From: a virus
IMG/VR virus record: IMGVR_UViG_3300020472_000115
Location: 1 to 30,545 of that record
Strand: one strand, 5' to 3'
Length of the DNA stretch: 30,545 nt
In this document: one piece after another, positions 445-20,686 of the stretch
Layout: each line of letters starts with the position of its first letter
Numbering within the stretch: position 1 is the first letter of the stretch
Notes under the pieces: generated by a model
What the model saw: the letters and a program-made list of their open reading frames with translations, nothing else
Told to the model about the DNA's origin: nothing
Databases searched by the model: none
Translations under genes and position numbers: made by a program

Positions 445-510
445 CTCTATCACATTATTACTTAATTCACTCTAATTACTCACACTATGTTATACACAGG
501 TAATGCACAG

Positions 511-544
511 TTTTCCACAGTTAATGGACTCAATCTGTGGAAAA
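511..544. repeat. Perfect 10-bp inverted repeat with 14-nt spacer
   Basis: TTTTCCACAG at 511-520 is mirrored by CTGTGGAAAA at 535-544, with a 14-base spacer. Each arm contains a complete DnaA-box-like nonamer, so the repeat may simply be two convergent boxes. As RNA it could form a hairpin, but no T-run follows, so a terminator is unlikely. Confidence 0.75.
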
Positions 545-572
545 GTATATTAAATGCCTTTCAAAATGCTCT

Positions 573-580
573 TATAAATA
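573..580 (+). promoter_or_regulatory. T4-late-promoter-like TATAAATA
   Basis: An exact match to the T4 late promoter core TATAAATA in AT-rich DNA. No gene starts within 250 bases downstream, the next being at 839, so a transcript would have a long leader through the iteron-like repeats. It may be a chance AT-rich match. Confidence 0.3.
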
Positions 581-626
581 TACCCCTGCTTTCTATTCTT
601 TTCCACAAGGGTGTTAATAAAGGGGG

Positions 627-677
627 TGTAATTAGTGGAATAAATGTTAGTAATGGCAATGTAATCTGTGGAATAAA
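627..677. repeat. Two 18-bp near-identical direct repeats (iteron-like)
   Basis: TGTAATTAGTGGAATAAA at 627-644 and TGTAATCTGTGGAATAAA at 660-677 agree at 16 of 18 positions, with a 33-bp period. Both contain a GTGGAATA core related to the inverse complement of the neighbouring DnaA-box-like sites. Tandem sites of this kind are typical protein-binding repeats (iterons or operators). Confidence 0.65.
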
Positions 678-697
678 GGTGATATCTTGTAGTGATC

Positions 698-727
698 TAA
701 GCGAGCATTATAACACAATCTCGCTTA
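698..727. repeat. 8-bp inverted repeat around a leftward -10 box
   Basis: TAAGCGAG at 698-705 is matched by CTCGCTTA at 720-727, spacer 14 bases. The arms straddle the minus-strand -10 hexamer (707-712), the geometry expected of an operator for a dimeric repressor. A hairpin role in RNA cannot be excluded. Confidence 0.5.
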
Positions 728-736
728 TATTGTCAA
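707..736 (-). promoter_or_regulatory. Leftward sigma70-type promoter
   Basis: On the minus strand the sequence reads TTGACA (complement of 731-736), an 18-base spacer, then TATAAT (complement of 707-712), preceded by TGT as in an extended -10. Both hexamers are perfect. Transcription would run leftward into the non-coding region with no recognisable minus-strand ORF, so an antisense or non-coding RNA is the implied product. Confidence 0.6.
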
Positions 737-4236: not shown

Positions 4237-4638
4237 ATGCCAATAGAGAGGGTAAATCAAGGATTTAAAGATATTAGTGCATCATTTAAGATTAATCCCT
4301 TAAATTATGACCTAATTGCTTTAAAAAATACAACTGCAATTGCTCGTTCTATCAGAAATATTGTATTTACAAGTCGTGGCGAAAAGTTTTTTGATCCAGA
4401 TTTTGGTTGTGAAGTATCAAAAGCACTATTTGAGAATTTAGATGAAGTTACAGCCTTTACTATAAAGGAAGAAATTGAATTTTCTATTTTAAATTATGAA
4501 CCAAGAGTCGAATTAGTGGATGTTAATGTCGTTCCTGACTTTGACGGAAACCAATTTGCAGTCACAATCACTTATATTATTGTTGGAATTGACGTTCCAC
4601 CTCAACAATTAGAATTTGTATTGTTGCCAACAAGATAA
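4237..4638 (+). CDS. 25: Baseplate wedge protein gp25
   Basis: A 133-residue protein of the GPW/gp25 family, the same length as T4 gp25 (132). It belongs to the wedge where the baseplate meets the sheath, acting as sheath polymerisation initiator. The family core is visible: IARSIRNIVFTSRGEKFFDP (residues 35-54), then the conserved EPR triad at 88-90 in NYEPRVEL, and a final beta strand region (FAVTITYIIVGIDVPPQQ). The stop TAA is immediately followed by the gp6 ATG, so the two are co-translated. In T4, gene 25 lies elsewhere, whereas here it is directly upstream of gene 6. No Shine-Dalgarno is evident. Confidence 0.96.
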   Translation: MPIERVNQGFKDISASFKINPLNYDLIALKNTTAIARSIRNIVFTSRGEKFFDPDFGCEVSKALFENLDEVTAFTIKEEIEFSILNYEPRVELVDVNVVPDFDGNQFAVTITYIIVGIDVPPQQLEFVLLPTR

Positions 4639-6597
4639 ATGCCTCTTCAGAACTTTACTGGTCTTGATTTTGACCAGATAAAAACTACCCTACGGGACTA
4701 TTTAAAGAATAATTCGAATTTTACGGATTATGACTTTGAAGGATCTAACCTGGCAACGATTTTAGATGTATTAGCATACAATACCTACACAAGTTCTTAT
4801 AATGCTAATATGATATCTAATGAGGTATTCATAGATTCTGCCACTCTGAGGGAGAATGTGGTGGCACTGGCAAGGAATATAGGATACTTACCAAGATCTA
4901 AAAAGGCATCGAGGTCCTTAGTGACTTTCTTTGTTGATATGACAACGGTTTCTCCAACTCCTGCAAGTTTAACTCTTAAAAAAGGACCAGTTGCAAGTAC
5001 AGGAAATCAATTTGGTGGACAATCTTATGCTTTTGGAATTCCTGATGATAAAACAGTTGGAGTTATAGAGGTTTCAGATAGTACTGGTAGTGGAAGAGTA
5101 GCACAATTCAATGATGTAGAGATATATGAAGGAACTCTTTTAGATCAAACATTTACATATTCGTCTAATAACCCATTTCAGAAGTTTATTTTACCTAATA
5201 CTGGAATCGATCTTGATACATTAAGTGTTAAAGTAAAATCAAATTCCAATTCTTCAACAGCTGTAGAGTATGTTAGACAAGATAGTCTCTTTACTGCAAA
5301 AACAGGAACAACAATTAACGGAGAATCCAACATATACTTTATTAATGAAGTTGAAAGTGAACAATATGAATTAATCTTTGGTGATGGTATTTTTGGTAAA
5401 GCACTTCAAGACGGAAATGTTGTTGAAGCATCTTATATTGTAACAAGTGGTGATTCTGCTAATGGTATCAGTAACCTTACTTTTGCAGGAAGATTGACTT
5501 ATACACGAAATTCTATTGATTATAATGTAACTAGCGGAATCTCATTAATCAACACTCAGGGACGCTCCAGTGGCGGTGAGGCCATCGAAAGTGTTGAGTC
5601 CGTTAAAAAGTATGCACCACAGATTTATGCCACTCAGAATAGGGCATTAACAGCAAATGACTATGAGATCTTAATTCCTAATAAGATTTACCCTGAAGCA
5701 GAGTCAATCTCTGTATATGGTGGTGAGGAGATGGTACCACCACAATATGGGAGGGTTTTCATTAGTATAAAACCACGTACAGGTGATTTTGTACCAGGTG
5801 CAATTAAAGAAAATATTAAAAGAGATTTAAAGAAATATTCTGTTGCAGGAATTGTACCAGAAATTTTAGATCTAAAATACCTATTTGTTGAAACTAATAA
5901 TGTGGTGTATTACAATACGACAAAAGCACCTTCTGCAGCATTTGTTTCAACGGTAGTACAAGACAATATTAATAAGTATGCTGAATCTGCAGAGTTAAAT
6001 AAGTATGGGGCAAGATTTAAATATAGTCAATTCCTCAGAGTTATTGATCAAAGTCATGAGGCTGTTACTTCTACTATTACTACAGTAGAGATGAGACGTG
6101 ACTTAAGGTTAGCAATAGACACTTTTGCAGAATATGCAATTGATTTTGGTAACGAATTCCACATTGACTCTATGAATGGATATAATATTAGATCTAGTTC
6201 ATTTAGAGTATTAGATATTAATGAGGATGTGTATCTTTATGATATGCCAAATACTGATAAGAAGACAGGAACTATGAATTTATTCTCTTTGGACTCTTCT
6301 GGATCAAATACCCCTACAGTTCAAAGAAAGAATGTTGGAAAAGTTAATTATAAAACTGGTCGAATTACATTAGATCCTATTAATATAGTATCTGCTAAGA
6401 CCAAGGATGGTGTACAAATTATGGAAATATCTACAGTTCCTGAATCTAATGATGTTATCGGTTTACAGGATCTTTATTTGCAACTAGATAGTAGTAACGT
6501 TGACATGGTTGTTGATGAAATCAGTTCAGGTATTGACCCATCTGGATCCAATTACGTTGTTACCCCAAGTTATACCACTGGAAGCATAGTAAGATAA
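4639..6597 (+). CDS. 6: Baseplate wedge protein gp6
   Basis: A 652-residue homologue of T4 gp6 (660 residues), a gpJ-like protein that dimerises to form the inner ring joining the six baseplate wedges. Matches to the remembered T4 sequence include YDFEGSNLATILDVLAYNT (residues 31-49 against T4 YDFEGSRLNVLCDLLAYNT), GYLPRSKKA (82-90), the J-type FGDGIFGKAL near 250, and RALTANDYE near 334-342. The C-terminal third is more divergent. It lies between gp25 (no gap) and the gp7-position giant (4-base gap), consistent with wedge assembly order. No truncation seen. Confidence 0.96.
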   Translation: MPLQNFTGLDFDQIKTTLRDYLKNNSNFTDYDFEGSNLATILDVLAYNTYTSSYNANMISNEVFIDSATLRENVVALARNIGYLPRSKKASRSLVTFFVDMTTVSPTPASLTLKKGPVASTGNQFGGQSYAFGIPDDKTVGVIEVSDSTGSGRVAQFNDVEIYEGTLLDQTFTYSSNNPFQKFILPNTGIDLDTLSVKVKSNSNSSTAVEYVRQDSLFTAKTGTTINGESNIYFINEVESEQYELIFGDGIFGKALQDGNVVEASYIVTSGDSANGISNLTFAGRLTYTRNSIDYNVTSGISLINTQGRSSGGEAIESVESVKKYAPQIYATQNRALTANDYEILIPNKIYPEAESISVYGGEEMVPPQYGRVFISIKPRTGDFVPGAIKENIKRDLKKYSVAGIVPEILDLKYLFVETNNVVYYNTTKAPSAAFVSTVVQDNINKYAESAELNKYGARFKYSQFLRVIDQSHEAVTSTITTVEMRRDLRLAIDTFAEYAIDFGNEFHIDSMNGYNIRSSSFRVLDINEDVYLYDMPNTDKKTGTMNLFSLDSSGSNTPTVQRKNVGKVNYKTGRITLDPINIVSAKTKDGVQIMEISTVPESNDVIGLQDLYLQLDSSNVDMVVDEISSGIDPSGSNYVVTPSYTTGSIVR

Positions 6598-6601
6598 CCC
6601 A

Positions 6602-9600
6602 ATGACAGAAAAAAGAGTTCAGTTTAATACTATCGTAAAGAGCCAACTGCCAGAATATGTGCAGGATGAGTTTCCTTTGATGGGTGAGTTCTTATCTCAA
6701 TACTATCAGGGACAAGAGTATCAGGGTGGGCCTCTAGATTTAATTCAAAATATTGATAAGTATATCAAATTAAGTGAATGTGGAAATACTATTAAATCCA
6801 CTAAACTTACTGCTTCTATTTTTGAGGAAGATTCGACAATTGCCGTTGAGAATACCGAAGGATTTCCTGCTAATTACGGTTTATTAAAAATTAATGATGA
6901 AGTTATTACATATAAAAGTAAAACAAGTGTAGCATTTGTAGATTGTGCAAGAGGATTTAGTGGAATTACGTCTTTTAGGAATAGTTCTAATCCTGAAGAT
7001 GTAGTTTTTTCAACTTCTACAGCTGCTATTCATGAAGATGAAACTGTAGTAGAGAATTTAAGCATCCTATTCTTGGAAAAATTCCTTGAAAAGGTTAAAA
7101 ATCAGTTTTTATACGGATTTCAAAGCAATTTACATTCAGATTTAAATCAATCACAGTTTATTAGGCAGTCAAAAGACTTTTATTCGACAAGAGGAACTGA
7201 CGAATCCTTTAAAATTCTCTTTGGAGCACTATATGGTGAAGATGTAAGTATTATTAGACCTAAAGATTATGTAATTTCTCCTTCTGATGCTAATTTTCAG
7301 TTAAATAGACAACTTGTTGTAGAACCTGTAGAGGGAGATGTAGAAGATTTATTAAATAAGACACTTTTTCAGGATCCATTTGAAAATATAACAAAGGCAT
7401 ATGCTCCAGTTTCTAATGTAGAGAAGGTTACTGTTGGAATTTTAACCAATACTTATTGGAAAGTTAGTGTTGATGGATCTTACAGTCAAAATGATGGTTC
7501 TTCTGATTTAATATATGGACAATTTACACCAAATGCCAAGAGTAAGATAATTGGTAAAGTTGGTGTAGGACAGACATTTTTGGATGTTGATTCAACTTTA
7601 GGATTCCCAAATTCAGGTACTCTTTCTTATAGGTTTGAGGATGGAACAGCTGGAGTTTGTACATATGCCCATAAAACGATAAACCAGTTTTTAGGAATTA
7701 ATACAACAGGTATTGGTAAGACAATTCTTGATAATACTGCGATTGATCAAGATACTTATTCGTATGGTGCTGGTGCTGGTACAACAAATGGTATAAGAGT
7801 TAAAATTAGAGCAGTTTTAAAAGATCTAGTAATTCCAACAGAAACATATTACCAAAAATCAGGTTCTAAGGTTAAACTTATATCTTTGGGTAAAGTTGGT
7901 AAGGATCTTAAAAATAATAATTGGTTATTTAACACAGCACAGTCATATGTTGTTGAAAAATTAGAAATTATTGATTCTATAAACTATCTTTATCGTTTAA
8001 CTACCAAAGATCAGAATATCTTTAAAATTGGCGATAAAATTACAACTCATGAAACAGTAAACAACAGTATTAAGTGGGGATCGCTGATAACTGCTGAATT
8101 TGAACCGAGTACAGGTCTTCAATATGATGTAAATGATGTTTTTGATGAACATAGTTGTTTGATTCAAGGAACAGGTATAGTAGATGTTACTAAGATAGTT
8201 AAAGTAACCAGAATTATCTCTAAGGCTGATTCTACCGTCCATTCTCGAATAAATGAGAAAACTGCTAATGTTCAAAATGTTTATATTGATGAAAATGACA
8301 CTTTAGTCGCTTCTTCATCAATTCCTTATACTGGAAAGATAAAATTAAATCCAAGAAGACAAAAATTCGCTAATGTTACTGGAGTTTACACTAAAGGCGA
8401 CGAAATAATTAAAATTTGCAGTGGAATTGATCATAATTTCCGTACAGGAGATATGATTCATTATACTCCACAATATGAGTCTAAAACTATAACTCTTCCT
8501 GGCGGAAGAACCGAATTTATAGAATGGGTGGAAAGTTCACTCTTTGAAAAGGGTACAAATAATGATTATGGGAAGGGAATTTATTTTGTACAAAGAATTG
8601 ATGAAAATAGAGTAAAATTTGCAAAAAGTAGATCAAATCTTTATAATGAGATTTTTTCTAAAGTAACAATAGACGGTAACCTTGATACTGTTACTGTAAC
8701 CAATAATATTGTTGAAAAATATGAGAATTATGGCAAAATTATAGAATCTCAGAAACTCTTCAGAAAAGTTTCTCCACCAAATCATGATGGTCATAAACAT
8801 AGCACAATGCCAGGATATACTGGTATTCTTGTTGATGGTGTAGAAATTTTAAACTATAAGTCCACAGATCATGTTTATTATGGTGGTATCGATTCTATTG
8901 ATATTGTAAAAGGTGGTAAAAACTATGATGTCATTAATCCACCCCAATTAGTCATTACCGATTCTGTTGGAACAGGTGCAACGGGTACTGTTTCTGTTAA
9001 AGGTGATTTTAAAGAAATTAGACTTCTAAAATCTGGATTTGATTATTTGGATGAACCCATAATAAAAATTACGGGTGGAAATGGACAAGGTGCTGTTGCC
9101 AAAGCTCAATTAGTCACTATTCCTCATGAAGTTACTTTTGATTCTACTGGAATAGGATCTCATACCTCTGGAATAGGTACAGTTATAATTGGTGAGTCTA
9201 GTAATCAATCAACCATTGGATTCTCTACTTATCATAAATTTAGAGTAGGAGAAAGGGTTGTTTATAAAACTTTTGGAGAAAAGTCATTAGCAGGACTTGG
9301 TACAAATTCAATATACTACGTTTCTCTAAATGATGATTATACTGTAAAATTACATAAGACTTATGAGGATGCAGTCTCTGGACTTAGTACGGTAACCTTC
9401 ACTGCTTATGGTAAAGGTACACAAGCATTAAGATCACTTAATGGGAAAGCAATTGTAAGTTCTATTGCAATATTAGATTCAGGTTCTGATTATGAGAATA
9501 AAGAAAGAACATGTGCATCTGTTGGTATTAATACTGCATTAAATGTTGTAAACATACCCAATCATGGATTTGGTGATCGGGAACTGCTTAGATATTCTAA

Positions 9601-12600
9601 TGATCTTGCAAATGTTGGATCTGGTGCAACTACATTAGTAGCAGGTCTTTCTACCGCTAAGGATTATTATGTTTCTGTTGTTAATGAGGATTCTTTCCAA
9701 TTAGCAGCTGTTGGTGTAGGAACTACGGTAAATGACTTTTATCTCAAGACCAAACAATTTGCAGACCTTAGTAGTGTTGGATTTGGAACTCATAAATTCA
9801 ATTATCTTCCTATTGAAGTACAACTTATTGGAAGAGTCGGAATATCATCTATAGAAGGAGATACGTTTGAAGCAGTAGTACAACCTATTGTGCGTGGTGA
9901 AATAACATCAATTAACTTAACTAATAATGGTACTGGATATGGTGTAACTAATGTTGTTAATTTTGAAAGAGATCCTCAAATTGAAGTATCTTCTGGACAA
10001 GATGCACTACTTACACCCGTAATTTCTGGTGGAAAAATTGTAGATGTTAGTGTAAGTGCTGCAGGTACGAATTATAATGCTCCACCTAATCTATCAGTTA
10101 TTGGAATTGGAACAGGAGCTAATTTAGTTCCTGAAATGAATGCATTGGGCAATATTGTATCAGTACGAGTTAATCATGGTGGTATTGGTTATGGAGTATC
10201 TACTACATTTGTTCAAGTTGATGCTGCAGGACAACGATCTAAGTTTGAACCGAATTTGCAATCTTGGCAATTTAATAAGATTCGTAGAAATGAGGCTAAT
10301 CTAAATGATGATGATGTCTTCCTTTCAAAACCCACTAATAGTAATTTTGGAATACAGTGTTCATATGCATATGCACCTAGAAGTTTAAGAAAGGTACTTT
10401 ATGCAACAAATGCAGATGGAAAAGTTTTATATGGACAAAAAGATCTTAGATTAGTTAATAATGTAGAAGTAGAGAATACAAACCATTCTCCTATCATTGG
10501 ATGGGCTTATGATGGTCATCCAATTTATGGTCCTTATGGTTATTCAACATATACGGGTGGTTCTATTGCCCAGATGAAGAGTGGTTATGTAGAACAAGCA
10601 AGTTTAGTTAACGGAAGACCACCAATAAGTGAATTTCCTGCTGGATTCTTTATAGAAGATTATAAGTATATTCCTTCAAATGATCAGACTCAACTTGATG
10701 AAAATAATGGTAGATTCTGCATTACTCCAGAATTTCCAAAAGGCACGTATGCTTATTTTGCGACATTTGAATCAGTTGTTGCTTCTACTGGAATATTTAA
10801 GAATTATAAAACACCAGAATTCCCTTATTTGGTTGGTAAGGCATATAACTCTCAACCAGACAAATTTAATTTCAAGAGATTATCAAATCAAGATGATCAT
10901 GATTTAAATAAGACGAATTGGGTTAGAAATACTTATCCTTATGCTTTAACTAAAAAGTATAGTGGATATGGATATGTTTCTCAATCTTATGATTATGTAC
11001 CTCAAGATTCTACCATTGATTATGCTCAGAAAGGAACTATAGATGCAGTTGGAATACTTACTGGTGGAACTGGTTATCAAGTAAATGATAAAGTTGTTTT
11101 TGATAAAGATATAAGAAAATCTTTCAAAGCATCTGCTAAAGTTGCTAAAGTTGCTAGTCCTGGAATAGGTACTGTCAATATAACCAATACTACTTTATCT
11201 GATATTGAATTTGCTCCAACTAGGATTGGTTCTTTAGATACTGTTGTTGGAATTTATACTGATAATCTTGGTCTTTTTGACAAATCTCTTGTTACTCTTA
11301 CTGGAATTAATACCACATCTTCTGATGTTTCAGGAACTTATAATATTGGAATTAGTACAAATAAACTGACTGTAACGACAGCAATTAGTACAGAGGGTAT
11401 TACTGGTATTGTTACATATTTCTCTGTAGGTGGTGAATTGCGATGGCCACATATTAAAGAAAATGATTTATATCAAGTAGGAACTGAGCAAATAAAAGTT
11501 CTAAACATTGATAGACTTAATTCTAGAATTAGAGTTTTACGATTAGAGAATAGTGTTGCAGGAGTATCTCATACTATAAGTACGGTTTTAACCGAACTTC
11601 CTAGAAAGTTTAGTATTAATCCAGCTGGTCATACTACTTCATATATCCCTAGGATTAATAGAGAATTATATTTTGATGCTAAAGAAGCAGTTGCAATAGG
11701 AACTGCACAACCATTTAGTGTTGTTGGAGTTGGAAGTACACTTCAATTTGCAAATCCAGGTGCTGGAATAACTCAATTGGTTGCTCCTCTTCAAACTCTG
11801 TATATACCTAAGCATGGATTAGTAACAGGAGATAGAGTTACCTATCAAGCTACTGGAGGTGGGGATTATAATATAGGAATTCTTACTGCTTCTAATCAAG
11901 TAGCAACTGGTGATAGTTTTAGTTTATCTGATTATTCTTCTTTATGGGTTGGTAAAATAAGTGACCATTATATTGGATTATCGACAGTTAAGGTTGGACT
12001 CGGTTCTACAGGTTCCTTTGCAGGAATTGCTGCTACAACTCAACATCAAGGATTAGTTTACTTCCGTTGGGTTGGTGCTGGTGGAACAACTCATAGTCTA
12101 AAAACAACTTATGATGTTGTAAAAGGTGATTTAGAGAAGAACTTAGTAACTGTAAAGACTTCTGCAGGAGCAACTCATGGATTAAGTAATGATGATACTA
12201 TTTTCATGGATATTAATCCTGGACTTAGTACTACTACAACTTTAAAGTATAATAAGACAAATAGGAAAGTTCTTGTTAACCCATTAGGATTCTCTACTGC
12301 TGGAATTGTAACAACTACTTCTGTAACAGGAATTCCTGATTCTATTAATATTAATGATCATAATTTAACAACAGGTCAAAAAGTCATCTATACTCCTGCT
12401 GATGCTGGTACATCTGTTTCAGGATTGACTAGCGAATCTCAATATTATGTTTATGTGGTTGATAGAAATTATATTAAACTTACTGAAGATAAGTTCCAGA
12501 CTACACAATCGCTTCCTAGATTTGTAGGATTACCTGCTCCAGGTTCAGGAACAATATCTCCTGTTAACCCACCATTATATTACTATAGAAATTCTAATGT

Positions 12601-15600
12601 AACATTTGATCTTTCTGATTCTTCTTTATCATATACTCAGAGTAATACTGATTATGCAGCATTTGAATTGGAGTTTTACAAAGATTCTAATCTTACTCTT
12701 AAGTATGAAACTAATGGTGTAATTGATGATACCTTTAATGTTACTAGAACTGGTACGGTTGGAGTTACAGCAGATGCTAAGGCTGTATTAAAGATTGATG
12801 CTAATAGTCCTGATATACTTTATTACAAATTAATTGCTGTTGATGTAGACCAAAATCTTCCAGCAAACAGAGAAATTGTAGTAGATGAGAGTGTTAATTT
12901 AAATAATCAGATAATATTAGAAGACAGTATCTATAATGGTGAACATACCATTGTTAAGCAAACTGATCAGGTCTTTACCTATGATATAGGTAAACGTCCA
13001 GAAAGATCTTCCTATGATATATCAAATAATACGGATGTTCTTATAAATTATACAACAGATTCTACTGATGCTTATGGTCGTATTTCTGAGATCAAACTCT
13101 ATGACAGAGGTGGCGGATATGCTGAGTTACCAGGAATAACTACAGTTACTACTGATCATGGAACTGGTGCGGTATTAGAATCTTCCAGTAAAACAATTGG
13201 AAGGGTTGTACGAACTACAATTGATAATATTGGTTTTGATTATCCTTCTGATTTAACATTAGATCCAGGAGCTCTATTCCCACAAGTATTAAAGATTGAA
13301 CCACTTACTGGTTTTAAATCTATTGGAATCACTTCTTATGGAAGAGGATATAATACTAATCCAAGTTTAGTTGTTCTTGATGGAAATACTAAGAAAGAAA
13401 TTAAAGACGTTGATTTATTATATAATCGTGAGGAGAAAAAGGTTGATATTCTTAAAAATAGTTATAGTTTAACTAATACTCCTCCAACTATTATACCAGT
13501 TGGAAATGCTAATGGAGTTAGAGCAAAAGGATTCACATTCAACAGATATGATACTGGTACCATATCGGGTATTAATAGTGCAGTCTATACAAATATCCCA
13601 ACTGTAACAGTAACATTATCTGAGACATTTAATAGTGTTAAAACTGCTGGTGGAGATTATCTGAATCCATTCCCATTTGCTATTAATGATGAGGTTTTAG
13701 TAGAAAATGTTAGCGTTGGTGTTGGTTCAACTTCACAAGGATACAACTCTTCAGAATATGAATATACAAGATTTAAGATACTTGAAGTAACACCAAATTA
13801 TGGTGGTATAGGAACTGTAAAATATAGCATGGAAGGTCTTATTGTTGAAGGTGAATGGCCTGGAGTTTATGATAGTATTGATTCTGCTGCAATGTTGGTA
13901 CCCTCTCAGTGGTTCCCGCATTTTGATGCTGTACTTGAACCAAATGCATTTAATACTAATGATGAAATAAGAGCAGGGGATAAAGAAGGTATTGTCTTTG
14001 ATTGGAATTCATCTCCAAAATTCTTAACTGTAGAGAGTAATGAGGAATTTGAAGTTGGAGAAATTCTTATTGCTGATGATACTGGAGCACAAGGTTTAAT
14101 TAAAGAAAAAGTTTCTTTTGAGTCTAAGTATAATCTAGATGAGTTGTCCACTGTTGATGATGGATGGGAATATCTTACTGGGTTCTTAAACAATGAATTA
14201 CAGAGAATTCATGATAATGAATACTACCAAAACTTCTCATATTCTATTAAATCTAAAGTTCAGTATGATGATTGGAAATCTATTGTTGGTTCTTTAAATC
14301 ATACTGCTGGATTTAGAAAATTTAGTGATCTTCAGGTAGAATCCTCTTTAGGTTCTGATGCTGCTCTTCAAGTTGGAATAACAACTACTGTTTCACGAGT
14401 ACTTGATTTACATGGTCTAGAAAGTCTTAATACTGTCAAGAATTATGATTTAGCAACTGAGAATTTCCTTGTTGGTACTAAGAGAGCATATTCGGATGAA
14501 ATTAACTTTAAGACAAGACTAATTACTGATTACTCAGAATCTATTGGAAATAGAGCTTTACTTATAGATGATATTAGTGGTCAATTTAATAGTAATCCAC
14601 GATCAACTCCATATTCGGATGTTTGGAGACAAAGATTATCTGATGGTAGATCTCAGGCATTTATCATCTATATGCAAGATAGATTGTATACGGGTGAAAG
14701 GCAAATAGTAAGAGTTAATGCATTACATGATACTGGTCGTGGTATATCAATGCTTAATCAGTATGGTGATGTTTGGAGTGTTCTTGATCTTGGAGATTTT
14801 GATTATGTGATTGATGGAAGTGAGTCTATTCTTCGTTTCTATCCTCACAAGTATAAACTTAACAATTATAATGTTGTACCATTCTCATTTAATATTGATA
14901 AGAATATCTTAGGAGTAACAACAAGTCAAAGTGGTGTATCTGTTGGTAATACAGAAATACCAGCTGCACCTGCTAATCCTACTCTGGGATTGAATGGATC
15001 TCTTATTAGTATTGCTTCCACAGTAGTTGAAATTGCTGGTGGTGCTGCAGGGACAGTATTCACTCTTGCTGGTATTGGAACTACTATATCAGGTCATAGA
15101 TCTGCTAAGATGTTTGTAACTGTTGAAGGAAGTGATGGAAGTGTTGAATATGATGAATTAACTGTTATCCATGATGGAACTAATGTAGGATGGCAAGAAT
15201 ATGGTCAATTAACTATTCATTCTCTTGATGCTTATTCATCGACTGGAAATATAGGAACCTACTGGCCTTATATGTCTGGTAATGATATTATAGTATCTTA
15301 TACTCCAGATGCTGGAATGACAACTGCCCATGTTAATGCAGTCGCTATAGGTATTGCTACACAAGGATATCAAGGAATTGGTACTTATGACTTCTCATAT
15401 GGTTCTATGAGAGCACAGAGTACAGGAATTCATTCTAGTTCTACTCCAATCCCCGTTGGGGTTGCAAGTTACCATAATGATTATGATGCTGCTTATTGCG
15501 TTGTTCAAATTGCAAATGTATTAGATGGTAATTATGAAATAGCAGAAGTCATTATTGTTGATGATTATGCTGATGATTCACAGGTGTTATTAACTGAATA

Positions 15601-18600
15601 TGGTAATGTTAAAGTTGGTACTACAAATGCTGGAATGGGTACTATTAGTGGTCGCAGGGCTGCTGATGATAATACTGAAATTACCTTTGTTCCTCATGCT
15701 GGAATAGGAGTATCAATTACAACCTTCATGACTCCATTGAGACCTGAAGTTAATACATCATTACTACCTGCAGGTGCTACAAGAGCAGTTGGTGGAGAAA
15801 CTAGCAAAGATTTAGGTAATGCTCAGATAGGAAATAATATTAGTATCTACGAAGGTACTGAATCAATGATTAAGAGGCAATTTGCCTTGAAACATAAGAA
15901 TGATCCAATCTTTAGAAGAAACTTTGATGGATCAGATTCTTCCATAGTTGATCTCACTAATAATACTATTCAAATTCCAAATCATTTTTGGGTTAGTGGT
16001 GAAGAAGTTGTATATTCTGTTCAGACTGTAGCAGGTGTTGGTACTACAGGAGATACTATTGGTATTTCAAAAACAGAATTCTCTGGTATAGGAACAGTTA
16101 CATATACACCATCAGCAGTCTATGTTATTAAGAAAGGAGAAGATAAGATTCAACTTGCTAGATCTGCAGCGGATGCATTAAAAGAAATTGCTGTTCCTCT
16201 TGATCTTACTTCAGTTGGTGTAGGTACATCCCATAGTTTCACTTCTAAAGGACAGAATACTAAGGTGATGGTTGGGATTGATAATATGATTCAGTCTCCA
16301 ATTGCCGATACAACAGTATCTACAACATTGGATAGGGCTGCTCCTCTTGGTTCGGATATAGTTTACTTTACAGGAATAACGTCATTCTTTGGTGCAGACT
16401 ATGTAAGAGTGGGTAGTGCTACTACCTATGAGGTTATGAAGATCCTTTCTGTTGGTATTGGATCTACTAATGCAATTAAGGTACAGCGTGGTTGGTTAGG
16501 ATCATCTATTGTAGGACATTCTACTGGATCTGCTATTAATAAGATTAGAGGAAATTATGATATTCTTGATAACTATATTAATTTCATTGAAGCACCTAAT
16601 GGTAATCAACCTATTGGTTCTACAACCAATCCACCAGATGATCGAGATTGGATAGGTATAACTACGTCTTCTAGTTTCCACGGAAGATCTTTCATGAGAT
16701 CTGGTGTAGAAAATGGAACTAGTGAAACCTATACATTGAATTATCAATACGATGATATTTCCCATCAGTTTACGGGTCAGGTAAAAGATTTTGACTTAAC
16801 TGTTGATGGAGCAAATGTTACTGGGATTGCTACTAATAATGGTATTGTTTTAATCAATGGAGTATTCCAAGGACCTGGTAATTCAGTTGATTATACAATG
16901 TCTCAGGCAGGTGGAGTATCGGAGATTAACTTTACTGGTGGAATTGCCACAAACGCATATGATCCAAATACTGCAACGGTTCCTGTTGGTGGTCTTATCG
17001 TTTCTGTTGCATCTAGTAGAGGATTAGGTTATCAACCACTCGTTGCTGCTGGTGGTACTGTAACTGTTTCCATTGCTGGTACTATTGCATCTATAGGTAT
17101 TGGAACATCAGGTTCTGGTTACAGGGCTGGTATTCAAACTGTCACCGTTGGCATTCAAACAGAAAGTATGGGTCTTGCAGGTATCACCAGTGTTGGTGTT
17201 GCTGCAGTATCGAACGGTGCTGTTACTAGTGTTAGTATTACAAATCCACAATGTTTCTATAAACCTAGAGATATTCAGATGGTTTCTTATGGTAATACTA
17301 CAGGTTTAACTACAGTTACTACTGCTACTGCTCATGGATTAAGTAGAGGATCGGATATTATTCTTTCTGGTATTGCATTTACTTGTGGATACTCTACTGC
17401 TGTAGGAATTGCTACTGCAGATTATAATGCTGGTGCTGGTATTATGACAGTTACCACACTTTATGATCATGGATTATCTGCTACAGGAACTCAGAAGAGT
17501 ACAGTTGTATTAACTGGTCTTGCAATGACTTGCGGATTGGGTGCTACAGTCAACCACATCTACCCTCGAAACAGAGATAGGGTATATGACACCGCCGTAG
17601 GTATTAAGAGCGATGGAACGCCATATACAATAACAAATGCTGAATACACCCCTACCACTGGTATTACTACAGTTACAGTGGCTGGTCATGGATTCTCTAA
17701 TTTAGATAAGATTAAACTTGCTGATAATTCACTAACATTCACTTGTGCTAAGGATGGTCATATTTCTAATCATTCCTATCCAAGACCTACTGATCCTATT
17801 CATGGACAGTGGATTGGAATTACAAGTGTAACTACTAATACTTTTGTAATCAATGTTTTAGGTATTACTACTGGACCTACATCAGCATCTACTAATACTG
17901 GTGTTCATACCTTTGTCAGTGCCACTACAGGAGGTCTAACCTACAATGATGGTACAATCACCCTAAACGTAACTACATCTGCTGTAAGCGATCAGTACGC
18001 CCATACATTTGTAGGTGCTGCCGCAAGTACAATTATTACTGGTGCGAATTATTCTCACGCATTTAGGTGGGCGAAGAAGGATGCTGTTACCTCTGCAGGT
18101 AGTACAAATTATACTCCATATTATGCCACTTATGATGGTGCTACTGGTAATCTAGTAATGACCTTCGCTGATGCACATGGTTTAGGAACTAATGACACAG
18201 TGGGAATTGGTACAAGCACTATTGCGTTTGCTTGTGAAATGGATCAGTACGGTACTGATCATGCATATCCTCGTGCTAGTGATCCTGTAGCTGGAATCCA
18301 AACTGCTGTTACTGCAGTAACATCTACTACAATGACAGTAAATGTTGGTGCATCTGTCTTAGGATTTAATACTGTTACTGCTGCCACATATTATCAAACA
18401 ACTGGTGATATGAAGTTAAGTTTGATGAAGGCTCATACATTAACAACTGAGAATAGTGTCAAGTTACTGAAAGAATCACTAAGATTTACTTGTACTAAGG
18501 ATAGTAATGCAACTCAGCACAGATACCCAAGAGGTGGTGATCCTGGATATGATGGTATGCAGGTTGCTGGTGTAGGGAGTGCTAGAAACTTCTCAATCTA

Positions 18601-20686
18601 TGTTGGAACTTCTACAGTACCTACAAATTATGTTTCTGGAGGAACTGTACAAGCATGTATCTATGCACCTAGAAATACTGATTTAGACGAACCAGGTGTA
18701 ACAGTTAATAAGGTTATTGATGATACCTCCTTTGAGGTTCAAGTAGGTCTATCAAGTAGACATCACCTTTACAATAGAGGTGGAAAGGTTAATCAGCAAA
18801 TGAAGGTTGTATTTGATTCACCTCTCGGATATAGTGATATTCCTCTTGTACAAAGTTCAACTTCTCCTGGATCAGGTGGAGCACAAGCAACTGCTAATAT
18901 TGTTGTTGGACAAGGATCAAGTGTAACCAACTTCTCGATTAGTAATGTTGGATATGGTTATGGTGTTAATCATATATTAACCCCACAAATAACAGGTGCT
19001 GTTGGTATTCCAACAATGGCAGACTTTGTTCCTTCTACTGAATTCCAAATAACAATAGATGAAGTCCATGATGATCAATTTAATGCTTGGTCTATTGGTC
19101 AAATACAGGTTATTGACGATTTCTCAAATCTCTTTAATAATAAGAGGAAAACTTTCCCAATTGAATTGGGTGGTACTCCATTATCAATTCAAGCAAGACC
19201 TGGTGCTACTGTAACTATTCAAGATACTCTTCTTATCTTTATTAACGATATTCTTCAGATTCCTGGTGAGTCTTATGACTTTACTGGAGGAAGCAATATC
19301 AGTTTCACTGAGGCACCTAAAGCAGAAGATACAATGAAGTTCTTATTCTATAGAGGAACTGGTGGTGCTGATGTTATTGATAAGGATATTCTTGAAACTG
19401 TTAAAGTTGGTGATGATTTAACACTTGGTTGGAATGGTAGCCTACTGGCAGTCAACGAATATCAACAGAGTTGGTTGCAGGAAGGTAATCGTACAGTTGA
19501 TAAGATTAACTCTGCAAATTCAGTTGATACTAATCCATATGATGACGCTGGTGTATATGAGGAGACAACAGTTTATAGACCCATAGATTGGACTAGACAA
19601 GTTGAAGATAAGTTTATTGGTGGTAAGAAAGTTGGTAAAGATCGTGTTCTTTATAAGGCAAATCTATATCCTACAGCATATCTAACTCAGAATGTTGGTG
19701 CTGCTGGTACAATTCTTTATGTCGATAATGTAAGACCGTTCTTTAATCCTAAGAATGAAAATTCAGTATCTACAGATTTCCAGAAGACTGTTGAGATCTT
19801 TAATAATAAGGAAGTAATTTCTGCTGCTGCTACAGCAATAGTTTCTGCTGGTGGAACAATTGAATCTATTACTATATCAGGTACAGGTAATACTGGTGGT
19901 AGAGGATATTCAACTGCTCCGAGCGTAACAATTCAGAATCCTGTTGGTATGGGAACAACTGCTCGCGCAGAAGCAACAGCTACTATTTCTGGTGGTTCTG
20001 TTAACACCATTACTGTTGGTGTTCAATCTGGTGTTGGATACACAGGAACTAATCCACCACTTGTTTTAGTTGGACCTCCTGTTGACATAACAGAAAGTAA
20101 TTCTGTAGATTCTTACTCAGGAGACTTTGGTATTATTAGTGGAATAGGATTTACTTCGGTTGGTGTGGCTTCTACTGGTATTACACTTGATCTTTGTATT
20201 CCTTATGATTCTTGGTTAAGAAATTCTGATATTACTCAAGGTTCTACTAGTGGTATAACAACTAGTGGTATAGAAGTTGGCGATTACTTGGTAGTTCGTA
20301 ATTCCAATGTTGGTAATTCTGGATTTGGATTAACCTCACTACAATCCAATAATAGTGTATGTGGTGTTGGAACTATCTTTATAGATAATATATACAGAGT
20401 TGCTGCTGCTGTTGGGGTTAATACTTCAGCAATTGGATTTGGTACAGTAGGTGTTGGTTCAACTACGGTCACACGGGTAACCGTAAGTGTTAGTAGTACT
20501 GAAGGAATCTCTGGTATTGGTAATAGTAATTTCTACGGTGAATTTAGTTGGGGTAAAATTGTTCTTTCATCTAGAGCGAAATCTCAAGCATTTACTGTTA
20601 ATACTACAAATGGTATTAGTGGAATTGAAACAGGTCCAAATGTTCAAAGGGTCCTACCTTTGAAGATTGAGAATTATGATACCTAA
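6602..20686 (+). CDS. Giant baseplate protein in the gp7 position (4694 residues)
   Basis: One uninterrupted 14-kb frame, nearly half the window. Gene order 6-giant-8 places it at T4 gene 7. DFYSTRGTDESFKILF (192-207) plus GALYGEDV match the T4 gp7 core (DFYSTKGIEASYKFLF-KVLYNEEV). YYQNFSYSIKSK with DDWKSIVG and HTAGF (about 2541-2573) match the later gp7 segment YYVMKIKSN-RWKSDV-HPVGF. The two parts lie roughly 110 residues apart in T4 but about 2,300 apart here. The insertion holds Gly-x-Gly-Tyr modules, a YHYH-like domain (1249-1420) and numerous [VI]G[VI]G[TS] motifs. After the second half come about 2,100 residues of fibre-like repeats, including five HxYPR modules (about 3563-4030). The likely role is wedge scaffold with large external decorations that may contact the host. 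That it is structural is near certain; homology to gp7 is inferred from motifs and synteny. Confidence 0.88.
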   Translation: MTEKRVQFNTIVKSQLPEYVQDEFPLMGEFLSQYYQGQEYQGGPLDLIQNIDKYIKLSECGNTIKSTKLTASIFEEDSTIAVENTEGFPANYGLLKINDEVITYKSKTSVAFVDCARGFSGITSFRNSSNPEDVVFSTSTAAIHEDETVVENLSILFLEKFLEKVKNQFLYGFQSNLHSDLNQSQFIRQSKDFYSTRGTDESFKILFGALYGEDVSIIRPKDYVISPSDANFQLNRQLVVEPVEGDVEDLLNKTLFQDPFENITKAYAPVSNVEKVTVGILTNTYWKVSVDGSYSQNDGSSDLIYGQFTPNAKSKIIGKVGVGQTFLDVDSTLGFPNSGTLSYRFEDGTAGVCTYAHKTINQFLGINTTGIGKTILDNTAIDQDTYSYGAGAGTTNGIRVKIRAVLKDLVIPTETYYQKSGSKVKLISLGKVGKDLKNNNWLFNTAQSYVVEKLEIIDSINYLYRLTTKDQNIFKIGDKITTHETVNNSIKWGSLITAEFEPSTGLQYDVNDVFDEHSCLIQGTGIVDVTKIVKVTRIISKADSTVHSRINEKTANVQNVYIDENDTLVASSSIPYTGKIKLNPRRQKFANVTGVYTKGDEIIKICSGIDHNFRTGDMIHYTPQYESKTITLPGGRTEFIEWVESSLFEKGTNNDYGKGIYFVQRIDENRVKFAKSRSNLYNEIFSKVTIDGNLDTVTVTNNIVEKYENYGKIIESQKLFRKVSPPNHDGHKHSTMPGYTGILVDGVEILNYKSTDHVYYGGIDSIDIVKGGKNYDVINPPQLVITDSVGTGATGTVSVKGDFKEIRLLKSGFDYLDEPIIKITGGNGQGAVAKAQLVTIPHEVTFDSTGIGSHTSGIGTVIIGESSNQSTIGFSTYHKFRVGERVVYKTFGEKSLAGLGTNSIYYVSLNDDYTVKLHKTYEDAVSGLSTVTFTAYGKGTQALRSLNGKAIVSSIAILDSGSDYENKERTCASVGINTALNVVNIPNHGFGDRELLRYSNDLANVGSGATTLVAGLSTAKDYYVSVVNEDSFQLAAVGVGTTVNDFYLKTKQFADLSSVGFGTHKFNYLPIEVQLIGRVGISSIEGDTFEAVVQPIVRGEITSINLTNNGTGYGVTNVVNFERDPQIEVSSGQDALLTPVISGGKIVDVSVSAAGTNYNAPPNLSVIGIGTGANLVPEMNALGNIVSVRVNHGGIGYGVSTTFVQVDAAGQRSKFEPNLQSWQFNKIRRNEANLNDDDVFLSKPTNSNFGIQCSYAYAPRSLRKVLYATNADGKVLYGQKDLRLVNNVEVENTNHSPIIGWAYDGHPIYGPYGYSTYTGGSIAQMKSGYVEQASLVNGRPPISEFPAGFFIEDYKYIPSNDQTQLDENNGRFCITPEFPKGTYAYFATFESVVASTGIFKNYKTPEFPYLVGKAYNSQPDKFNFKRLSNQDDHDLNKTNWVRNTYPYALTKKYSGYGYVSQSYDYVPQDSTIDYAQKGTIDAVGILTGGTGYQVNDKVVFDKDIRKSFKASAKVAKVASPGIGTVNITNTTLSDIEFAPTRIGSLDTVVGIYTDNLGLFDKSLVTLTGINTTSSDVSGTYNIGISTNKLTVTTAISTEGITGIVTYFSVGGELRWPHIKENDLYQVGTEQIKVLNIDRLNSRIRVLRLENSVAGVSHTISTVLTELPRKFSINPAGHTTSYIPRINRELYFDAKEAVAIGTAQPFSVVGVGSTLQFANPGAGITQLVAPLQTLYIPKHGLVTGDRVTYQATGGGDYNIGILTASNQVATGDSFSLSDYSSLWVGKISDHYIGLSTVKVGLGSTGSFAGIAATTQHQGLVYFRWVGAGGTTHSLKTTYDVVKGDLEKNLVTVKTSAGATHGLSNDDTIFMDINPGLSTTTTLKYNKTNRKVLVNPLGFSTAGIVTTTSVTGIPDSININDHNLTTGQKVIYTPADAGTSVSGLTSESQYYVYVVDRNYIKLTEDKFQTTQSLPRFVGLPAPGSGTISPVNPPLYYYRNSNVTFDLSDSSLSYTQSNTDYAAFELEFYKDSNLTLKYETNGVIDDTFNVTRTGTVGVTADAKAVLKIDANSPDILYYKLIAVDVDQNLPANREIVVDESVNLNNQIILEDSIYNGEHTIVKQTDQVFTYDIGKRPERSSYDISNNTDVLINYTTDSTDAYGRISEIKLYDRGGGYAELPGITTVTTDHGTGAVLESSSKTIGRVVRTTIDNIGFDYPSDLTLDPGALFPQVLKIEPLTGFKSIGITSYGRGYNTNPSLVVLDGNTKKEIKDVDLLYNREEKKVDILKNSYSLTNTPPTIIPVGNANGVRAKGFTFNRYDTGTISGINSAVYTNIPTVTVTLSETFNSVKTAGGDYLNPFPFAINDEVLVENVSVGVGSTSQGYNSSEYEYTRFKILEVTPNYGGIGTVKYSMEGLIVEGEWPGVYDSIDSAAMLVPSQWFPHFDAVLEPNAFNTNDEIRAGDKEGIVFDWNSSPKFLTVESNEEFEVGEILIADDTGAQGLIKEKVSFESKYNLDELSTVDDGWEYLTGFLNNELQRIHDNEYYQNFSYSIKSKVQYDDWKSIVGSLNHTAGFRKFSDLQVESSLGSDAALQVGITTTVSRVLDLHGLESLNTVKNYDLATENFLVGTKRAYSDEINFKTRLITDYSESIGNRALLIDDISGQFNSNPRSTPYSDVWRQRLSDGRSQAFIIYMQDRLYTGERQIVRVNALHDTGRGISMLNQYGDVWSVLDLGDFDYVIDGSESILRFYPHKYKLNNYNVVPFSFNIDKNILGVTTSQSGVSVGNTEIPAAPANPTLGLNGSLISIASTVVEIAGGAAGTVFTLAGIGTTISGHRSAKMFVTVEGSDGSVEYDELTVIHDGTNVGWQEYGQLTIHSLDAYSSTGNIGTYWPYMSGNDIIVSYTPDAGMTTAHVNAVAIGIATQGYQGIGTYDFSYGSMRAQSTGIHSSSTPIPVGVASYHNDYDAAYCVVQIANVLDGNYEIAEVIIVDDYADDSQVLLTEYGNVKVGTTNAGMGTISGRRAADDNTEITFVPHAGIGVSITTFMTPLRPEVNTSLLPAGATRAVGGETSKDLGNAQIGNNISIYEGTESMIKRQFALKHKNDPIFRRNFDGSDSSIVDLTNNTIQIPNHFWVSGEEVVYSVQTVAGVGTTGDTIGISKTEFSGIGTVTYTPSAVYVIKKGEDKIQLARSAADALKEIAVPLDLTSVGVGTSHSFTSKGQNTKVMVGIDNMIQSPIADTTVSTTLDRAAPLGSDIVYFTGITSFFGADYVRVGSATTYEVMKILSVGIGSTNAIKVQRGWLGSSIVGHSTGSAINKIRGNYDILDNYINFIEAPNGNQPIGSTTNPPDDRDWIGITTSSSFHGRSFMRSGVENGTSETYTLNYQYDDISHQFTGQVKDFDLTVDGANVTGIATNNGIVLINGVFQGPGNSVDYTMSQAGGVSEINFTGGIATNAYDPNTATVPVGGLIVSVASSRGLGYQPLVAAGGTVTVSIAGTIASIGIGTSGSGYRAGIQTVTVGIQTESMGLAGITSVGVAAVSNGAVTSVSITNPQCFYKPRDIQMVSYGNTTGLTTVTTATAHGLSRGSDIILSGIAFTCGYSTAVGIATADYNAGAGIMTVTTLYDHGLSATGTQKSTVVLTGLAMTCGLGATVNHIYPRNRDRVYDTAVGIKSDGTPYTITNAEYTPTTGITTVTVAGHGFSNLDKIKLADNSLTFTCAKDGHISNHSYPRPTDPIHGQWIGITSVTTNTFVINVLGITTGPTSASTNTGVHTFVSATTGGLTYNDGTITLNVTTSAVSDQYAHTFVGAAASTIITGANYSHAFRWAKKDAVTSAGSTNYTPYYATYDGATGNLVMTFADAHGLGTNDTVGIGTSTIAFACEMDQYGTDHAYPRASDPVAGIQTAVTAVTSTTMTVNVGASVLGFNTVTAATYYQTTGDMKLSLMKAHTLTTENSVKLLKESLRFTCTKDSNATQHRYPRGGDPGYDGMQVAGVGSARNFSIYVGTSTVPTNYVSGGTVQACIYAPRNTDLDEPGVTVNKVIDDTSFEVQVGLSSRHHLYNRGGKVNQQMKVVFDSPLGYSDIPLVQSSTSPGSGGAQATANIVVGQGSSVTNFSISNVGYGYGVNHILTPQITGAVGIPTMADFVPSTEFQITIDEVHDDQFNAWSIGQIQVIDDFSNLFNNKRKTFPIELGGTPLSIQARPGATVTIQDTLLIFINDILQIPGESYDFTGGSNISFTEAPKAEDTMKFLFYRGTGGADVIDKDILETVKVGDDLTLGWNGSLLAVNEYQQSWLQEGNRTVDKINSANSVDTNPYDDAGVYEETTVYRPIDWTRQVEDKFIGGKKVGKDRVLYKANLYPTAYLTQNVGAAGTILYVDNVRPFFNPKNENSVSTDFQKTVEIFNNKEVISAAATAIVSAGGTIESITISGTGNTGGRGYSTAPSVTIQNPVGMGTTARAEATATISGGSVNTITVGVQSGVGYTGTNPPLVLVGPPVDITESNSVDSYSGDFGIISGIGFTSVGVASTGITLDLCIPYDSWLRNSDITQGSTSGITTSGIEVGDYLVVRNSNVGNSGFGLTSLQSNNSVCGVGTIFIDNIYRVAAAVGVNTSAIGFGTVGVGSTTVTRVTVSVSSTEGISGIGNSNFYGEFSWGKIVLSSRAKSQAFTVNTTNGISGIETGPNVQRVLPLKIENYDT
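8891..9112 (+). repeat. Gly-x-Gly-Tyr beta module, copies in giant protein
   Basis: Encodes two linked units: IDIVKGGKNYDVINPPQLVI then EIRLLKSGFDYLDEPIIKIT. The pattern is strand, GG/SG-x-x-Y, PP-x-hydrophobic strand, then GTGATG or GNGQGA. Further copies lie at 9896-10221, 13076-13400 and 19850-20080, with partial ones near 11040 and 18930. The function is unknown, and the units look like a repeating beta-sandwich or decoration domain. Confidence 0.6.
9896..10221 (+). repeat. Gly-x-Gly-Tyr beta modules, second group
   Basis: Three consecutive units of the same pattern: ITSINLTNNGTGYGVTN, IVDVSVSAAGTNYNAPPNLS and IVSVRVNHGGIGYGVSTTF. The units are about 35-40 residues apart. They sit directly before the YHYH-like domain. 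Confidence 0.6.
10346..10861 (+). other. YHYH-like domain within the giant protein
   Basis: Residues about 1249-1420 of the giant protein. GWAYDGHPIYGPYGY (1300-1314), LDENNGRF, TPEFPKGTY and FPYLVG follow the order of the YHYH domain. The name-giving tetrad, normally in GTYHYH, reads GTYAYF (1381-1386), so both histidines are lost. The domain's biochemical role is not established; here it is an insert between beta modules. Confidence 0.75.
13076..13400 (+). repeat. Gly-x-Gly-Tyr beta modules, third group
   Basis: Units ISEIKLYDRGGGYAELPGIT, VVRTTIDNIGFDYPSDLTL and FKSIGITSYGRGYNTNPSL. Same pattern as the groups at 8891 and 9896, located about 800 bases before the second half of the gp7-like core. 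Confidence 0.55.
17288..18690 (+). repeat. Five tandem HxYPR modules in the giant protein
   Basis: Five related units begin near 17288, 17420, 17642, 18119 and 18386. Each typically has TTG-x-hydrophobic strands, a HGL/HGF/HTL turn, a strand FTC or FAC, then H-x-YPR and in three units DP (SYPRPTDP, AYPRASDP, RYPRGGDP). The spacing is about 45-90 residues and the first unit lacks the YPR part. The segment from about 17540 to 18130 has visibly more G and C than its surroundings, suggesting that some modules were acquired more recently. Confidence 0.65.
19850..20080 (+). repeat. Gly-x-Gly-Tyr beta modules near the giant's C-terminus
   Basis: Two units: GTIESITISGTGNTGGRGYS and VNTITVGVQSGVGYTGTNPP, separated by an Ala-rich strand (ARAEATATI). 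They match the pattern seen in gp8 and the DUF4815-type protein. Confidence 0.55.

Follow-up and report, generated by a model that had tools for sequence, protein, structure and literature searches.

A conserved array of host-type DnaA boxes upstream of gp25 may be the replication start point of T4-like marine cyanophages

The window analyzed here, the whole 30,545-b contig of a T4-like cyanophage, carries a compact array of cyanobacterial-type DnaA boxes that is conserved in sequence, position and orientation upstream of the baseplate gene gp25 in many related phages. The clustering is real and not due to chance, and from sequence comparison we judge the boxes to be genuine host-DnaA-binding sites. 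The most likely reading, to which we assign a probability of about 0.5, is that the array is a DnaA-assisted replication origin and may be the point at which these cyanobacteria-killing ocean viruses start to copy their DNA.

The array in the window

The box-bearing stretch is located between the open reading frames at 226-444 and 839-1012 and looks non-coding; an open frame is present at 487-777. It starts with TTATACACA at 490-498 (plus strand), followed by three exact copies of TTTTCCACA. Two of these, at 511-519 (plus) and 536-544 (minus), face each other across a 16-b spacer as a convergent pair, and the third, at 599-607 (plus), is found 88 b (8 x 11) from the first. A one-mismatch box, TATTCCACA, is located at 667-675 (minus). 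The preliminary description of this DNA had claimed three exact boxes, one TTATACACA and one near match in a cluster, with two exact boxes forming a perfect inverted repeat. Both claims were confirmed, the former at 490-675 and the latter with 10-b arms at 511-520 and 535-544. A count over the whole contig, proposed there as a check, found the exact boxes confined to this cluster: no other exact TTTTCCACA occurs in the 30,545 b scanned, where the pattern TTWTNCACA matches only the three TTTTCCACA and TTATACACA. In most complete box-bearing relatives, too, the boxes are concentrated at this place.

By itself the window has just three exact boxes, which might be put down to chance clustering in AT-rich DNA. 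According to shuffles of the sequence, 0.55 exact boxes are expected per whole contig, and at least three anywhere were seen in 1 of 100 shuffles. When the letters of the 9-mer are permuted in all 1,260 ways, the true order alone has three copies within 120 b. This permutation test, the control scans, the conservation and the phasing described below all oppose chance, which is refuted by the conservation already and has a negligible probability.

Immediately right of the array is a small conserved phage gene of 57 aa (839-1012, plus; phrog_12516) with no assigned function. The T4-like baseplate wedge gene gp25 (4237-4638, plus), our positional landmark downstream of the array, and gp6 (4639-6597) were both identified with Pfam and PHROGs. 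Between the array and gp25, a fatty acid desaturase gene (PF00487) at 1453-2229 is likely an auxiliary metabolic gene, and downstream of gp6 a single open reading frame of 4,694 aa spans 6602-20686. No RNA families or tRNAs were found in the window.

Conservation upstream of gp25

In order to follow the pair across viruses, 2.9 million viral contigs were scanned, with at least 120 loci matching TTTTCCACA-N5-30-TGTGGAAAA and at least 120 matching the same pair with a fixed 14-b spacer (N14). Located by its profile, gp25 was present in 56 loci among the N5-30 matches listed and in 69 among the N14 matches listed. In all of these gp25-bearing loci (56/56 and 69/69, among the matches listed) it was found downstream of the pair and in the same orientation, even with a palindromic pair query. 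Each of the 51 listed N14 loci that lack gp25 breaks off within 8 kb on one side or both, and the true gp25-bearing fraction may therefore be higher. Many T4-like cyanophages carry the inverted pair, at 2-9 kb upstream of gp25, and the S-CAM22 element used as a blastn query retrieved 194 phage records. A permuted control, TTCTTCACA...TGTGAAGAA, matched 94 loci in total, with gp25 in 0 of the 80 tested. Convergent pairs of the E. coli-type box TTATCCACA in viral contigs were likewise accompanied by gp25 in 0 of 120 loci, and the position upstream of gp25 therefore belongs to the cyanobacterial box. In the matches to the control pattern TTCTTCACA-N-TGTGAAGAA itself, one spacing (29 b) predominates across many viral contigs that look unrelated, a hint of a further conserved element.

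A second set of loci was chosen by gp25 relatives and not by boxes. With at least 4.5 kb upstream needed for the clade counts, the box pair was found in 32/41 loci of the S-CAM22 clade, 3/10 of the window's clade and 2/19 of the P-SSM2 clade, while none of 60 permuted 9-mers formed a pair in any gp25-sampled locus. Of the 30 S-CAM22-clade loci whose upstream sequence extends to 5.3 kb or more, 29 carry the N14 pair. When 9-mers were ranked by clustering upstream of gp25 with no prior motif, TGTGGAAAA came first, in 30/30 S-CAM22-clade loci; the next non-overlapping 9-mer clusters in 6/30. Across 10 nonredundant rows of this clade, mean conservation was 1.00 and 0.98 for the boxes, 0.86 for the spacer, 0.82 for the next 30 b and 0.58 for the preceding 60 b. 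In many cases the last bases of the 14-b spacer, immediately ahead of the second box, read TGCGGAAAT or TGCGGAGAT, which amounts to a degenerate third box in register. Arrays of the window type, with a third box at +88, +98/99 or +109/110, were found in about 10 other contigs, and a search for other box variants in relatives without TTTTCCACA found no paired variant. Conservation of position in relatives, which had been named earlier as a further check, was thus borne out both by the blind scans and by the gp25-sampled loci.

A coding explanation was considered and rejected. In S-CAM22 and Syn33 a small CDS extends with its 3' end into the pair, but in many relatives the pair directly follows a stop-like TAG or is located in non-coding DNA, and it therefore seems to be the DNA, not a protein, that is conserved.

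Among named isolates, arrays upstream of gp25 were found in Syn9, S-PM2, Syn33, S-CAM22, S-SM2, P-TIM68 and ACG-2014d, and in ACG-2014g the pair occupies the syntenic position. In Syn9, Syn33, S-CAM22, S-PM2, ACG-2014g and P-TIM68 the array is the densest 300-b box cluster genome-wide, with one such cluster per genome in these six complete isolates. No box pair was found in the stretch examined of P-SSM2, P-SSM4, P-HM2, HTVC008M, S-CRM01, S-RSM4, T4 and KVP40; Bellamy has no exact boxes, and the two of SynMITS9220M01 are scattered. Most P-SSM2-clade relatives and several of the window's clade lack the array, which is therefore not a general requirement of T4-like phage replication. Neither does it travel with one gene, since its right-hand neighbor changes from clade to clade (phrog_12516 in the window and S-SM2, phrog_718 in Syn33 and ACG-2014g).

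Identity of the boxes

TTTTCCACA is the cyanobacterial DnaA box consensus, with binding assays for the Cyanothece and Anabaena origins (PMC4674748). In 14 cyanobacterial genomes, mostly small and hence presumed to be picocyanobacteria, the roughly 570 b around the dnaN start hold 17 copies of TTTCCACA, a density of 2.13 per kb versus 0.05 per kb further upstream. When the convergent pair was sought in public bacterial genomes, dnaA or dnaN was found within the 8-kb stretch in 37/120 loci, which we infer to be far above chance for 8 kb of a several-Mb genome. The boxes might instead be sites for another phage or host protein with DnaA specificity, serving genome organization, recombination or packaging; in favor of this, profiles detected no DnaA in the phages, nor any DnaN. 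The exact host consensus, the additional presence of TTATACACA and the same pair beside bacterial dnaA/dnaN speak against such a protein, and we regard it as quite improbable.

A copied host oriC was also considered and rejected. No tight convergent pair (spacer 3-33) was found in 26 genomes of picocyanobacterial size, and no layout was shared with the host origin beyond the boxes themselves. In several host-type genomes a convergent TTTTCCACA pair recurs whose spacer is always 35 b (44 b from start to start), in three of them in similar AT-rich surroundings, and this may be a host DnaA site away from dnaN. In two host-type genomes TTATACACAgcTTTTCCACA faces a second TTTTCCACA about 272 b away; the box combination of TTATACACAgcTTTTCCACA resembles window positions 490-519.

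Helical phasing, AT-rich block and promoter-like sites

In 210 nonredundant arrays, box spacings repeat every 10.7-10.9 b, in a test that counts related arrays as independent, making its nominal P value too small. The search patterns had partly preselected the convergent spacings, but the periodicity also holds for direct repeats (11-12, 21-22, 32, 42 and 52 b), for which no search selected.

Directly 3' of the pair is an AT-rich block (545-580), a candidate unwinding element. Over the first 30 b 3' of the pair the AT fraction is 0.73-0.76 versus a background of about 0.62 (78 nonredundant loci). Inside this block, TATAAATA at 573-580 matches the T4-type late promoter, NATAAATA (PMC2984593). 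Two divergent sigma-70-like sites follow. The leftward one (707-736, minus) combines TTGACA at 736-731 with TATAAT at 712-707 across an 18-b spacer and is directed at the boxes. The rightward one (774-802, plus) combines TTGACA at 774-779 with TATTAT at 797-802 across a 17-b spacer and is directed at the gene at 839. Among the 78 loci, the best minus-strand -35 element is an exact TTGACA in 27, and plus-strand matches reach 11-12 out of 12 in 31. No minus-strand ORF of at least 60 aa was found left of the leftward promoter-like site, and a leftward transcript would therefore be non-coding or antisense. Around this site, window positions 701-736 form a conserved stretch whose form varies among clades; in the window, an AAGCGAG...CTCGCTT palindrome covers the -10 region. 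T4-like cyanophages are without MotA and AsiA (review PMC2984593).

These promoter-like sites raise the possibility of a DnaA-controlled transcription switch, in which bound DnaA would repress or activate the divergent promoters and couple phage expression to the replication state of the host. Such promoters adjoin the array in many loci, the leftward one pointing at the boxes, and Bellamy and SynMITS9220M01 retain the AT-rich stretch and promoter-like sites at the same locus without the box pair. Against a switch, the first rightward gene varies among clades, the boxes are about 60-230 b away from the promoters, and each genome has one array and not several operators. We consider a switch possible but rather unlikely.

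A DnaA-assisted origin and its rivals

The general view is that T4-like cyanophages rely on nothing but their own machinery to copy their DNA. A DnaA-assisted origin would be expected to take the form seen here, a single, fixed, phased array with an AT-rich block and a promoter next to it, and in our analysis several clustered, non-random boxes of host consensus are in helical phase and beside a candidate unwinding element, as at DnaA-dependent origins. In the model we posit, host DnaA would occupy the convergent pair together with the helically phased outer boxes and so unwind the neighboring AT-rich block. RNA made from the leftward host-type promoter may contribute, either to duplex opening or as a primer for the first fork. 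From there on, replication would pass to the phage's own replication proteins and then to the recombination-dependent mode.

One property of such origins, a turning point in nucleotide skew, was not found at the array. The cumulative GC skew, proposed in the preliminary description as a check, gives no support in eight complete genomes, and neither does AT skew; the skew has one sign almost throughout, which makes this a weak test, and P-SSM4, without boxes, has a profile similar to that of array-bearing phages. The earlier interpretation is upheld in part: the cyanobacterial-type identity of the boxes is strongly supported, the proposed checks mostly came out in its favor, and GC-skew support for an origin did not emerge. 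Of the three functions offered there (origin, titration site or switch), we rate an origin highest. T4-like phages also have other ways to start replication.

The array might alternatively act by DnaA titration, with growing numbers of phage copies sequestering host DnaA and thereby halting host replication. Several exact, conserved host-type boxes per array would fit such a sink. Each phage genome copy, however, brings two to six boxes versus about 8-45 TTTTCCACA per host genome, and titration needs no fixed genomic place, strict phasing or adjoining AT block. In our view this role is improbable.

The fixed, conserved array makes directly testable how T4-like cyanophages choose their replication start. 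With slightly less confidence than in the origin itself, we suggest that in a large lineage of lytic T4-like cyanophages host DnaA opens a single compact origin from which replication starts. If true, infection would be coupled to the replication initiator of the host and to any control acting on that initiator. Through a host-DnaA array of fixed position, viruses that are among the commonest in the ocean would be linked to this protein.

Comparison with known systems

DnaA boxes are known from chromosomal and plasmid origins and from those of some temperate phages. No literature on DnaA boxes in T4-like cyanophages was found in a search of mainly open-access journals; DnaA-box origins themselves are known, and it is the conserved array of putative host-DnaA sites in lytic T4-like phages that the searched literature did not contain. 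On where these phages start replication, a review (PMC2984593) cites only the prediction of a single theta origin for Syn9.

The array resembles P1 oriR-type origins in placing host DnaA boxes on a non-chromosomal replicon. P1 oriR represents a DnaA-dependent origin type of plasmids and temperate phages, with its own initiator encoded beside the origin, whereas the array-bearing phages are lytic and T4-like. The E. coli datA locus is a DnaA-titration site, a DnaA-box cluster outside the chromosomal origin; the array differs from it in being small, of fixed geometry and virus-borne, and in having an AT block and promoter-like sites next to it.

At T4 oriF (ori-uvsY), transcripts help to open the duplex or prime the first fork. 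Like the array, oriF belongs to a T4-like phage and is near gene 25; it is promoter-linked (NC_000866 annotation), as the array may be. It lies past the 3' end of gene 25 and works through the uvsY transcript, while the array is upstream of gp25, and T4 has no box cluster near gene 25. In the window and many relatives a leftward promoter-like site is found near the AT block, at a position different from that of T4 oriF.

The cyanobacterial oriC regions of Synechococcus elongatus PCC 7942, Anabaena PCC 7120 and Cyanothece 51142 differ from the array, which is on a phage, not beside dnaN, and has a tight convergent pair that was not detected in the 26 cyanobacterial genomes of picocyanobacterial size. 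They share with it TTTTCCACA boxes in non-coding DNA, and at cyanobacterial oriC these boxes are bound by cyanobacterial DnaA (PMC4674748).
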